A stretch of 64,000 nucleotides of DNA, from assembly GCA_002284615.2 (NCBI GenBank), contig MU070221.1, forward strand, positions 17,034 through 81,033. Direction: 5' to 3'. Under the pieces are notes generated by a model that saw nothing but the letters and a program-made list of their open reading frames with translations, was not told where the DNA came from and did not search any database. Positions 44,461 to 55,830 of this stretch are shown piece after piece (the stretch's first letter is position 1; the number at the start of each line of letters is the position of its first letter). Both the position numbers and the translations under genes were made by a program. The stretch comes from Dunaliella salina (Eukaryota > Chlorophyta > Chlorophyceae > Chlamydomonadales > Dunaliellaceae).

Positions 44461-44957
44461 AAAAGAAAAAGAAAAGACAACTACGCAGGCAGTGAAAGCA
44501 CTCCCCGCATCAATTAAGGAAAAGGGGATACCTAGGGCCGAGGCACCGTGTATCCGCTTCACCAAGAGAAAGCAGAAGCAAGAAGTCAGTGGGGATCAGG
44601 TGGGTTACTGGCAGTAGCCCGTGCCTGATCTTGTTGATGAGAGTTGGAGAAAGTTTTCTTAATAGCGCGTCTGGTGCTGGCAAGTTTGTAGGCATACAGG
44701 ACAGAATGAGCATGAAGCTTCCGAGCAAGCTTGGTGGCCTTGTGGGTGTCAAGACCAAACTCCTTAAGAGGCTCCAATGTGTGCGGGGTGTAGGTGACTC
44801 CTCCCACACCTAACAGAATAGTATGGAGGGTGACTTGAGCTAAGGCCTTGGAAAGATGACGACAAAGGTCGCGGTGCTGCTGCTTGGAGGCCTCGAGCTG
44901 GCTGTTGGGCCGGGTGTCCTCACAGTATTTGACTTCTATAAGGTGGATGTGTCTCTG
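44461..44957 (-). pseudogene. LINE-5, distal part: end of nuclease and 3' UTR
   Basis: Minus-strand frame ending at 44586. It opens with QRHIHLIEVKYCEDTRP, the ExK half of the nuclease, then LHTILLGVGGVTYTPHTLEP, and ends NPPDPH and stop. The 3' UTR (GGCAGTGAAAGCACTCCCCG in plus orientation) ends in an A/G-rich tail at 44461. It begins at the TGTGTCTCTG repeat (44948-44957) and continues the frame that breaks off at 49546. Both parts are therefore one element separated by LINE-4. Confidence 0.85.
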
Positions 44958-44958
44958 T

Positions 44959-46416
44959 CTTCTCACCAGCATCACTCCCATAGTAAAAGTCCTCTCAATG
45001 CCAATGCAACCCACCCTTAAAACCTTAGCCTGTCACTGAACTTATACGCTTATGGAAATAGGCATAAACAGGCTCTCTGCTTTGATGAATGATAACCTTA
45101 CCCATATTTTTGACGGGAACAAACTCACATCTCTGTTTGGTTCCAAAATAAAGACCAAACATATTGCAGCCCTGAATAGACTCTTTCATACTCTCAACAC
45201 CCACACTCTGACTGAGGACAGACCTGACCTCATCAGCACAATCATTCACAACCAAGACAGCTCACCCAATAAAACCCTTGAGTCACGCTGCATAAATCAA
45301 ACAACATATACAGAAATGATGAAAACAGGACATACACCAACAGGATGGAACTGGTCAAAGCTTTACCGAGGCCATGCTCCCCCTGATCCCCCCGATTCCA
45401 ACCCAGACAATGGGAGAAGTGCCCCTAATACACACATACACCCTGATTCTAGAGCTTACAGCAACCCCCTCTTTGATGCTGAGGATATGGAAGTAGAAAA
45501 TGCTTTCCCCAGCAGCCAGGAGAGCCCGTTTCCAAACAGTCAACCATGCGCAGAAGGGCACTCATACCAAGGCAGACGCATTTGCAAAAGAAACAATCCC
45601 CACGTGGAGCAGCCGCAAACACAAGTACATAATATACAACCCAATCAACCCTTTGCGACACCCCACACACAGACCCCGTCCCCGGAGCCCTCTCAGACCC
45701 CACAAATTGGAAGCAGAAGGTCCAGAGGGAGCCGAACCCCAACAACACTTTTTGACCCTGATCCCCAACCCATTATAACCCTTTGTCCCACATCTCCAAA
45801 CACTTCAAGCACTGATTTCCCCCAATGGCTCTGGAACTATAAACAGAATAAGGCTGATATATTAAGCACAGTTGAAGCTAGTAACACCATCTCCTGCTTC
45901 GACCATGTCATCCTACATATCTTGGGCTGGCAACACCTCCGGAAATATAAGAGATCTCAAGAAAAGGAGCAAAAACAATACAAAGTACAATGGCACCCCG
46001 ACACCATTGAAAAATGGGCCTTGTCCATTTTCCAAAATGATGGGCTGAAAGTGGCCTCTTCAAAGCATGTACCAAGAAGAACTAAAGCAGACCCATCTTG
46101 TCAGCTCTGCTGGAGCCCATTAAGCAAAGAATACACCTTTGAAAGTCAAATCCATGAAGACATGCCCACCTGTGGTACCTGCCGCCGCACATACCACTGG
46201 GACTGTCTCATAGATGTCAAAGCATGCTCCCAAAATGATCGGGCACTGAGCGAACAAAATGAGCACTGGGACTGCCCTGCCTGTGCATCCCTGTCAGACT
46301 CACAAAAAGCGGAAAGGATCAACTTCTCTGAGGACTGTGAAATGATCTATGTAGAGTGGCATCCTAAATTTAGGATGCCACTCCCATTTAAATGGGAAGC
46401 TGGAGAAATGCTATGA
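44959..46416 (+). pseudogene. LINE-4 thumb remnant, linker and PHD finger
   Basis: IKTKHIAALNRLFHTLNTHT aligns with KITKKRKIALNRLAALVN of LINE-5. A Pro/Ser/Asn-rich linker of about 200 residues follows, then a segment with IEKWALSIF, then the C4HC3 finger: CQLC, TCGTCRRTYHWDCL and WDCPACASL. At 46353-46380 a perfect palindrome, part of a 24-base in-frame insertion, adds FRMPLPFK between HPK and WEAGEML. The frame shifts about 10 codons later. Confidence 0.8.
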
Positions 46417-47520
46417 ATACATCCAGACATGTGCAAGCCTTTGACGCGGAGGGAAGACCAGAGGAAATAGAAGACACTTTGACCATTGAAATAGGCCTAG
46501 ACAATCTTGTCAACCACGGCTTTGAAGGCAATCCTCAGAGCCTATCTGAGTCTCCATGGCTCTCAACCACCGGCTGCGCAATTTGCAAGAATGTCAGCTT
46601 TGACTTCCAAACTACCAATCCCCAGATAGATATCATGCCAACATGCATGTCATATGGCAATGTGAAATTATCATTAGAAGTGTTGACCTCATGAAGGAAA
46701 CTCTTCACTCGGACACAACTGATGAGGTTGCCGTGCCAACACAAATGCCAGAGGTAACCACCTCTGAATGCGCCTGCATCTACAATACCAATGGCAAATG
46801 CATGGGCATGCTCACTATAGAAAGGCTCACAACCCTGCTCGAAGCTTACAAAGCAGCCAAAAGAGCAGGCATCCATGCCACCATTCAGCCCCCTGTCCAG
46901 GATTCAGCATCTGAAATCATGGGTCTGCTCTCACGCCAAAAGGCTCAACAGAAACGTCTTTTGGTCCAGAGCAAAAAGGTTTTCAATTCAAACATATTTA
47001 CCCTCCCACATCCAATCAGCCCTGCATAAATGATGCATGGTCTCAGCGAAGAGGTTTTCCAGCCCTCTTGGTTTTGAAAATACCTACAACACCTATTTCA
47101 GCACAAACTACCGAGACCAGGTCTTTGGGGCGCACACAGACGCCCTCTCTGTGTGCTACACTGGCTTCTCCTTCTGCCATCCTCCACACGATGATGAAAT
47201 GAGGTTTAAACTCCTACGCCACGCAGTGCACTCCTCCCTCCATTCCACAGATCCAGTTGCCACCTTCATGCTCCTGCCCCACTGGAGAGGCTTCAGCTGT
47301 AACGCGTATATGAGCTGGCTGTAACAATACCCAGATACTGCAAAAGTTCTTGCCCAATTCCCTGTGAGGAAAATCCGATTCCAAGCACCACAACACTGGT
47401 TTGACACAATCACCAATCCTACTCCACCTTCCTATCCTATGCAACTCATCGTTGTGTGGAACCCTAACGCCAGAGAAATACTAGACACCGCAAACAAAGA
47501 CTGATTTCAGTCCCTCCAGA
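46413..47520 (+). pseudogene. LINE-4 PCIF1-like methyltransferase region
   Basis: Spread over three frames: CACIYNTNGKCMGMLTIERL (shared with LINE-1/-5), then DQVFGAHTDAL, GFSFCHPPHDDEM, PVATFMLLPHW and, after a stop, PMQLIVVWNPNAR. The motif where PCIF1 enzymes have NPPF is CHPPHDD here. The aligned LINE-5 motif is CHPIYDD. Catalysis is therefore uncertain even for an intact ancestor. Confidence 0.55.
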
Positions 47521-54391: not shown

Positions 54392-55600
54392 GCAATAGTC
54401 AAGTTGGCGCTTAATGCGGTGGTTTGTACTTCTCTCGTTGTGAGGTATTCTGTGGCTAGGTTCTCCAAGTGTTTTACTTGCATTGTGAGGAGGCTCAGAG
54501 TGACATTGCGGTGTCTGTTTGAGGGGTCTCCTACGCTCAGTGTAAGGGCAAGGGCCATGCGTCTATGGTATTCCACAGATATAGATGCCACGCCCAGTCC
54601 ACAATTTGAGGTGTCCTCTCGAATCATTGCAGTAGCAGTGCAAGTCCACAGGCCAAACTTGTCTTTAATAATTCTATCCACCATATTATCCCACATTTCA
54701 AGCTCTGCAGGGGTGCAGGGGGAGACTGCAAAAGAGTAAGTCAGGATGGGTATGATAGCTGTGCAAACTATTTTTTGGATCAAGCTTGGGGTTAAAGATG
54801 TATTTCTTAGGTTTTCTAGCTTTTCTTTGAGGTTGCTTGTCATGCACTGTATTTGGTGCTTCCAGTTCAAGTTCATGGTTAGTTGTACTCCCAGATAGCG
54901 AAAAGGTGTGTCCAGTGTAATGAATTGTGCTTTTTGTCCTTGTATGTCAATTTTATCTTCGAGCTGCTGGCAAAGAGTCTGGGAGGGTGCCACTCCATTC
55001 CTGTCTCTTTGCGGGTGACTATATAGGATGCCTGTCACTTTGGTCTTGCTACAAGATATGGTGAGTGCTGCCCAGTCAGAATAAAGTGTAATCTTAAGAG
55101 CCTGAATTTTAAGGTTTTGAATAGTGTTTGTTTTGCTGAGTAGGTCATCAGCAAAGGAGGCGCTGCTTAAAATGTTGGCCAGCTGCTTTTCAGAGACGGT
55201 TTGGTTTTGATTAGGGATGCAGATGTGTTTGTAACCGCGCCCTCCTACGTGGAGCCAGCAGAGAAGGGGTTCCATGTATAGTAGGAATAGGAAAGGAGAC
55301 AACGTGTCGCCTTGAATAGTGCCTCTTTCAACGGCAATTTGTCCAGTATTAGTCCCATTGGCAAGTCTGATGAGAGTGGTGGCGTCTTTGTACAGGTTCT
55401 TAACAGTACTGACACTAGTGTCTATGGCATCTGTGGGGAAGCCAAGGTCATACATGATCCATAGCATGCGTTCATGATCTGTTGTGTTGAATGCGGAGGT
55501 GAAATTCACAATGAGGGCATAGATGTCTTGCTTAAAGAATCTGGCGTCTTCTAAGCTCATGATTACATTTTGGAGCTGGTGAATCGTATCTTTTTGGTTG
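54388..55600 (-). pseudogene. LINE-5 reverse transcriptase
   Basis: RT palm motifs are in order: QKDTIHQLQNVI (motif 2 region), ALIVNFTSAFNTTDH (motif A, where the usual first catalytic Asp is Asn), ERGTIQGDTLSPFLFLLYME (motif B), SFADDLL (motif C, the two Asp present), CSKTKV (motif D) and FRYLGVQL (motif E). The N-terminal fingers are missing by truncation. This is the only RT in the window. The Asp-to-Asn change in motif A is probably a decay mutation. Confidence 0.88.
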
Positions 55601-55639
55601 CGATTGATTACCAGTACAACAAGATTGATGTTGATTACC

Positions 55640-55830
55640 AGTACAACAAGAGGAGAGAAGAAAAGAGAAGAAAAGAAAAGAAAAGGAAAGAAAAGAAAAG
55701 GAAAGAAAAGGAAAGAAAAGAAAAGAAAAGAAATGAAATGAAATGAAATGAGAGGGAAAAAGGCTTACTTAGGCCAGAGGCCGCGTGCATTAAGGAAAGG
55801 CTCCAGACACAGCTAGAGTAGGTGAGGACC
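55640..55830 (-). mobile_element. LINE tail fragment (CPDTN lineage) with (GAAAA)n array
   Basis: About 110 bases of GAAAA/GAAAT repeats abut the 5'-truncated end of LINE-5, followed by CTTAGGCCAGAGGCCGCGTG, CATTAAGGAAAGGCTCC and CAGCTAGAGTAGGTGAGG. Confidence 0.7.

Follow-up and report, generated by a model that had tools for sequence, protein, structure and literature searches.

A PCIF1-like domain between reverse transcriptase and RNase H in a Dualen/RandI-like LINE family of Dunaliella salina

Described relatives and the locus

Among long interspersed elements (LINEs), R2 carries a restriction-like endonuclease (RLE) and no apurinic/apyrimidinic endonuclease (APE), and L1 carries an APE and no RLE. 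Dualen combines both nucleases in one element, as excerpts of two papers describe (PMC4640811, PMC3636483), and the tables of a third (PMC3747384) give non-A repeats for green algal RandI families, for example (ATT)n and (CTATTT)n, and (CTTT)n for SINEX-2_CR. Here, we analyse a 64,000-nucleotide stretch of the Dunaliella salina genome (assembly GCA_002284615.2, contig MU070221.1, positions 17,034 to 81,033 of the forward strand; hereafter the window, in whose numbering positions are given), where three LINE copies, LINE-1, LINE-4 and LINE-5, represent a family with the predicted single-protein order (Josephin)-APE-reverse transcriptase (RT)-(PHD)-PCIF1-like-RNase H-CCHC-PD-ExK nuclease. The PCIF1-like part is related to PCIF1/CAPAM, a cap-specific adenosine N6-methyltransferase.

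The RT of a genomic copy of this family, L041, matches those of R2 (7e-23) and L1 ORF2p (5e-14), and the family is unlike RLE-only R2 in having an APE and unlike APE-only L1 in having an RLE region. By domain content, APE plus RLE, it appears Dualen/RandI-like, a placement that follows published descriptions. With Dualen/RandI it shares the two nucleases in one element, RNase H, a non-A simple-repeat 3′ tail and occurrence in green algae. The initial annotation, made from the letters of the window, had also named Dualen/RandI as the closest kind, and the RNase H, the PD-ExK motif and an APE upstream of RT in two of six long genomic stretches and in 108 of 121 related proteins agree with it. 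Unlike Dualen/RandI as described, the family carries the PCIF1-like domain in every relative with both RT and RNase H (92/92), and often a PHD finger and a Josephin domain. One could hold that the family is plain Dualen/RandI, known from earlier work in which its PHD and PCIF1-like regions were either recorded or overlooked; the match of APE, RLE and RNase H to the excerpted descriptions (PMC4640811, PMC3636483) and of the 3′ end to the non-A repeats tabulated for RandI (PMC3747384) speaks for this, but no description of PHD, PCIF1 or Josephin in such LINEs is found among the matches listed from the open-licence literature, which excludes the original Dualen paper, and we consider it rather doubtful.

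Nested copies, genomic copies and relatives

The initial annotation had assigned positions 44461-55640 to one LINE family, and one family it is, although the span holds two elements: a decayed LINE-5 on the minus strand and, inserted into it, LINE-4 on the plus strand (Table 1). LINE-4 is bordered by an exact 9-bp duplication, GTGTCTCTG, at 44949-44957 and 49547-49555, and its insertion point is the nuclease region of LINE-5, the upstream half of which ends at about 49547 while the downstream half starts at 44957. When the LINE-5 flanks are joined across LINE-4, an open frame is restored through the nuclease motif QRHIHLIEVKY. The insertion of LINE-4 is a normal target duplication of a 5′-truncated LINE. 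By tblastn, the PHD, PCIF1, RNase H and nuclease regions of LINE-5 are matched in LINE-1 (24415 to about 20905, minus strand) and LINE-4 (plus strand), and hidden Markov models (HMMs) built from relatives place the four domains in the same order in all three copies, each of which also contains the C4HC3 zinc-binding pattern. The RT is found in LINE-5 alone (tblastn of LINE-5 pieces against the window, where the LINE-5 RT query has no other match), LINE-1 and LINE-4 both being 5′-truncated behind it; the shared order proposed for the three copies thus stands from the PHD finger to the nuclease and fails for the RT. A Pfam scan of ten window frames gave RVT_1, RNase_H, zf-RVT and PCIF1_WW in the frames concerned, with PCIF1_WW (25.4 bits in LINE-4, 22.8 in LINE-5) under the curated cut-off of 31.1 bits and PHD_4 in LINE-5 (0.0071) under its own. 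The final part of the LINE-5 PCIF1-like domain runs on in the frame at 49933-51150.

The genome itself (285 Mb, 1403 contigs) holds many copies. The LINE-5 PCIF1 region has 5555 first-look candidates, of which 130 were scored and gave 133 match rows; for Pfam PF12237, 150 of 881 candidates were scored and every one of these matches lies above the cut-off of 31.1 bits, so the family is abundant and its domain combination is not a product of chance. Full-length anatomy was read from six 10-kb stretches. In L041, a single 2430-residue frame starts before the RT and runs through to the end of the nuclease, with RVT_1 (5.1e-22), RNase_H (3.3e-12) and PCIF1_WW (8.4e-4; 19.4 bits, under the cut-off) recognized by Pfam. 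Together with the C4HC3 pattern and the HMMs, this frame bears out the earlier claim of a PHD finger and a PCIF1-like domain between RT and RNase H. An APE lies upstream of the RT in L040 and L043 (APE HMM 1.3e-27, 2.1e-16 and 1.6e-17), and is invisible in the window copies because these are truncated before it. L040 stretches also match a Josephin profile built from P0002 (2.8e-7, 1.4e-4), a match that Pfam did not confirm.

A query with the PHD-PCIF1 region recovered one full-length protein among 2796 candidates, P0002 (3399 residues), in which Pfam recognizes Josephin, APE, RT, PHD (22.1 bits, slightly under the cut-off) and RNase H; with L041, L040 and L043 it supplies the full-length and 5′ anatomy for which the initial annotation had advised a search. 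The 304-residue LINE-5 PCIF1 frame matched 127 proteins, 120 of them listed, and the RT matched 173. Among the best 120 of the latter, Haematococcus lacustris is the only named organism, the rest being environmental or unnamed, and its proteins are the nearest named RT relatives among the matches listed (43% identity). These 120 and P0001 form a set of 121 relatives, in which iterated profiles find Josephin in 72, APE in 108, RT in 121, PHD in 86, PCIF1 in 100, RNase H in 92 and RLE in 68, and in which the domain order is uniform except for repeated matches of one domain; a single pass with P0001 segments gave PCIF1 in 96/121 and PHD in 15/121. Pfam places APE above its cut-off in P0002, P0215, P0205 and P0237. 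A scan of viral contigs found no relative.

The PCIF1-like domain lies between RT and RNase H in 92/92 relatives that carry both, and the 21 relatives that lack it also lack RNase H; 12 of these end at most 441 residues past the RT, too early to reach it. A PHD finger is found by profile or pattern in 75 of the 92 and by neither HMM nor pattern in 17. Relatives lacking either part, which the initial annotation had named as evidence against itself, therefore exist among these 92 for PHD, 13 of the 17 forming one RT clade, and not for PCIF1. These counts, with the flanking duplication of LINE-4 and the read-through of the joined LINE-5 flanks, also answer its other doubt, that the PHD and PCIF1-like parts stem from a separate nested element, and speak against an assembly accident as well. 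Nesting is real in the window, but the insert is a copy of the same kind, sits in the nuclease region rather than around PHD or PCIF1, and the RT-to-nuclease order recurs in one 2430-residue frame; the single-frame proteins P0001 and P0002 refute either origin, to which we give next to no credence.

A tree of 40 RT rows, all less than 80% identical in the RT and rooted at the midpoint for drawing only, splits into 13 and 27 rows (support 100/99). The smaller clade combines APE, PCIF1, RNase H and RLE in all 13 rows and lacks PHD throughout, while 25 of the 27 rows of the larger have PHD, two of them by pattern only; therefore, PHD is a trait of one clade and PCIF1 of both. Pfam scores PHD above its cut-off in P0229 and P0241. 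Histone reading by this finger is plausible. A PHD finger in a non-LTR element recalls the CR1-like LINEs, which are reportedly equipped with a PHD domain in ORF1; unlike there, the finger here belongs to the RT protein, where it follows RT and precedes PCIF1.

Several side observations concern the relatives. One or two Josephin domains (deubiquitinase-type cysteine protease) stand upstream of APE in many of them (HMM, 72/121): in P0002 at residues 348-504 with a second stretch (Pfam 1e-11), and more weakly, under the cut-off, in P0230, P0237 and P0233. They could serve polyprotein processing or ubiquitin removal. P0219 (4078 residues, ENA source) has a precomputed PF02902, an Ulp1-type peptidase family, and is not matched by the Josephin profile built here, which suggests an exchange of N-terminal protease types. 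In EukProt, fragments bearing the label Pelagomonas calceolata reach 83% identity to LINE-5 (P0003), which points to either a close relative of the host or dataset contamination. The Haematococcus proteins P0133, P0151 and P0152 additionally list PF00665 and PF00385, presumably an integrase core and a chromodomain, and are probably gene-model fusions with neighbouring long terminal repeat elements.

The PCIF1-like domain

The PCIF1 methyltransferase fold is recovered both by a predicted model of P0009 and by a PDB profile search with alignment A4. The model came from 43 diverse rows (predicted local distance difference test, pLDDT, 76.6); 26 close sequences gave a pLDDT of 39 and were not used. 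A4 consists of the window domain and nine of twelve segments, most of the nine of the NPEY type, and so leans to the more PCIF1-like members; with the looser alignment A1 as the PDB profile, PCIF1 was not recovered, and a single-sequence search had no matches. PF12237 exceeds its cut-off in P0215 (50.6 bits), P0229 (51.6), P0241 (47.4), P0205 (37.5) and P0230 (52.5), and stays below it in P0237 (29.2) and P0233 (28.3). Foldseek likens the domain to PCIF1-like proteins of giant viruses (pithoviruses, Tetraselmis virus 1 and Hokovirus; E 8.6e-12 to 1.9e-6), whose listing, unlike the LINE proteins, names the PCIF1 domain only and indicates no LINE parts; giant viruses are a possible route by which the domain spread. 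The domain differs from PCIF1/CAPAM in its changed NPPF motif, in its fusion inside a LINE protein and in the lack of any WW family among the Pfam matches listed for P0001, P0002 and seven other relatives (E limits 1, 0.1, 0.01 and 0.1).

The NPPF motif occurs in none of the 97 readable domain rows (101 rows, four of them gapped). At its position stand NVPA in 49 rows (Haematococcus), NPEY in 12 and diverse others in the remainder, and the window copies read HPIY (LINE-1, LINE-5) and HPPH (LINE-4). Rows from the genome itself, a few of them copies counted twice where the fetched stretches overlap, read HPIY in 32/41, HPNY, HPIH, QPIY and QPDY once each, and are unread by the pattern in five. 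On the RT tree, the form N/S-P-x-aromatic is present in 11/40 rows, falls on either side of the root and requires seven changes, five forced by well-supported branches; because of this distribution, the ancestral motif was apparently NPEY-like and repeatedly lost. The initial annotation had proposed that the methyltransferase-like part acts on the RNA or DNA of the element, and one might picture an enzyme that still methylates adenine and places its mark on the element's capped RNA (or DNA), which would thereby be stabilised or hidden. The true PCIF1 homology and fold favour such an enzyme, as do the NPEY-type rows, which on both sides of the RT midpoint root keep the Asn, the first Pro and the aromatic residue, but the absence of NPPF, the HPIY and HPPH of the window family and the NVPA of Haematococcus stand against it; in human PCIF1, NPPF mutations made at N553 and F556 are inactivating, according to a review (PMC10544176). 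We judge catalysis distinctly unlikely, and the earlier proposal is not supported in this form.

The domain is nonetheless retained under purifying selection and accompanies the other parts across widely diverged relatives. Median pairwise dN/dS (the ratio of nonsynonymous to synonymous substitution rates) among genomic copies, calculated on the 30 best-scoring of the 133 match rows, is 0.272 for PCIF1 (30/30 loci, 432 pairs), 0.251 for RNase H (23/30 loci) and 0.169 for PHD (23/30 loci). RT distances correlate with those of PCIF1 (rho 0.253) and of RNase H (0.464) in 44 non-redundant of 82 proteins, with 0/999 permutations as high for either. Near-invariant residues are spread along the PCIF1 part, including those of ASPL, YWS..D..FGA and G.S, while identity among relatives drops to 14%. 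A purely structural role, as a ligand-free spacer or scaffold placed between RT and RNase H, would explain this low identity and the wide variation of catalytic-motif residues, but the near-invariant residues and a dN/dS close to that of RNase H tell against it, and we find it rather unlikely.

Because the PCIF1 part is retained under selection without its catalytic motif, we favour binding over catalysis: a lineage with APE and RLE, Dualen/RandI-like, in which the PCIF1-like part would be a binding module and the PHD finger an accessory tether, a reading to which we give an even chance. The PCIF1-derived domain would be kept to bind capped or 5′-end RNA, that is, the element's own mRNA, and this binding may aid cis-preference or completion of the 5′ end; in the window family it probably no longer methylates, and in one of the two major RT clades the PHD finger may add a tether to chromatin.

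Several points weigh against this reading. We infer RNA or cap binding by the PCIF1 part from homology alone, and 15 of the 97 rows keep N/S-P-x-aromatic (NPEY 12, NPKY, SPKY and SPDF) and might still be active. The choice of dN/dS loci by score favours low dN, and RT covaries less with PCIF1 than with RNase H. The PHD count depends on iteration, rising from 15 to 86 of 121, and of the 21 proteins that lack PCIF1, nine continue for 503-856 residues past the RT, far enough to include it; gene-model or decay effects are assumed for these nine. As Dualen/RandI sequences are absent from the RT tree, clade placement follows domain content, and the RLE is assigned from motif and position, not fold. 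The L041 frame has ambiguous bases (X) at several codons, its nuclease reads EVNY, with Asn replacing the Lys of EVKY, and no APE lies within the 1.7 kb fetched upstream of it; the APE HMM has no match in four of the six long stretches, and the Pfam APE matches in L040 and L043 are all under the cut-off (8.8e-5, 0.0026 and 0.025).

A more specific history, tentative and well short of even, is that a cap methyltransferase (PCIF1/CAPAM) entered a LINE lineage through a single early capture and there became a reader, no longer catalytic, of the capped 5′ end of the element's own RNA. If so, recognition of the full-length template and finishing of its 5′ end would be built into the RT protein, which also holds two nucleases, a PHD finger as chromatin tether and one or two protease-like domains of the Josephin type. 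How LINE proteins choose their own RNA and complete the 5′ end is an open question, for which a conserved cap-enzyme fold fused to an RT offers a testable handle; here selection maintains the fold even as the catalytic motif decays, apparently on several occasions. The combination of two nuclease types is relevant to how one nuclease class came to replace the other, and a family abundant in its own genome, with relatives in Haematococcus and many environmental contigs, is not a single-locus curiosity.

Nucleases, integration and further repeats

In contrast to NPPF, the catalytic residues of RNase H are nearly invariant, being kept in 91, 92, 91, 90 and 89 of 92 rows. Of the 68 relatives with an RLE by HMM, 66 have the CCHC finger and 43 have PD...[E/D]xK. 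As a separate observation, five of the 13 members of the PHD-less clade (P0230, P0231, P0233, P0234 and P0236) have a nuclease motif E-x-G (e.g., EVGYCSD) in place of E-x-K, the motif of the other eight not being cleanly read; the catalytic lysine may sit elsewhere, or this nuclease may be inactive. A T/C-rich tail of TTTTC-type units closes 20/20 fetched 3′ ends (of 40 matches), and the flanks beyond look unrelated by eye. Together, 5′ truncation, the 9-bp duplication and this tail agree with target-primed reverse transcription at sites that are not strictly specified. Microsatellite target specificity, suggested by the TTTTC tract that LINE-5 adjoins, is not favoured, since the tract is the element's own tail in the 20 fetched 3′ ends.

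Table 1. Features of the three LINE copies in the window
Feature	Position	Strand	Support or remark
LINE-5, whole	44461..55620	-	5′-truncated inside RT, 5′ limit approximate; LINE-4 inside at 44958-49546; 3′ tail near 44461
LINE-5 reverse transcriptase, middle to C-terminal part, FADD motif	54808..55602	-	Pfam RVT_1 1.8e-10; RT HMM 5.1e-100
LINE-5 PHD-type C4HC3 zinc finger	52263..52451	-	PHD HMM 5.8e-14; pattern; PDB ZMYND11 0.0046
LINE-5 PCIF1/CAPAM-like domain, main part, HPIY at NPPF position	51153..51782	-	Pfam PCIF1_WW 7.8e-5; HMM 4e-67
LINE-5 RNase H	50407..50823	-	Pfam 5.5e-12; HMM 4.6e-48
LINE-5 zf-RVT region with CCHC finger ahead of nuclease	49948..50178	-	Pfam zf-RVT 0.0021, under cut-off
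LINE-5 restriction-like nuclease, upstream half, RPDALL	49547..49921	-	tblastn; joined-flank reading
LINE-5 restriction-like nuclease, downstream half, HLIEVKY	44589..44957	-	RLE HMM 2.6e-34
LINE-5 3′ untranslated end and T/C-rich tail	44461..44588	-	
LINE-4 target site duplication, copy 1, GTGTCTCTG	44949..44957	.	
LINE-4 target site duplication, copy 2	49547..49555	.	
LINE-4, 5′-truncated after RT, nested in LINE-5	44958..49546 (about)	+	
LINE-4 PHD finger	46099..46287	+	HMM 2.3e-11; pattern
LINE-4 PCIF1-like domain, three frames, HPPH at NPPF position	46769..47474	+	Pfam 1.2e-5; HMM
LINE-4 RNase H	47742..48182	+	Pfam 6.4e-10; HMM
LINE-4 restriction-like nuclease, HLVELKF	48964..49284	+	HMM 2.2e-23
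LINE-1, 5′-truncated before PHD, 3′ end with TTTTC units	20765..24418, outer limits approximate	-	tblastn
LINE-1 PHD finger	23987..24175	-	HMM 5.3e-8; pattern
LINE-1 PCIF1-like domain, two frames, HPIY	22806..23509	-	HMM
LINE-1 RNase H, two frames	22099..22514	-	HMM
LINE-1 restriction-like nuclease, HLIEIKF	20971..21264	-	HMM 4.1e-31

Elsewhere in the window, two further LINE-4-like 3′ fragments, comprising the end of the RNase H region and the nuclease, lie at 61913-63176 and 30375-31211 (both minus strand), and short nuclease fragments lie near 18830-18979 and 43719-43808. Minisatellites occur at 29993-30320, 39048-39594, 40929-41272 and 44252-44386, for example with 22-bp units of 98% match, and a perfect 45-bp triplet adjoins the 3′ end of LINE-5.

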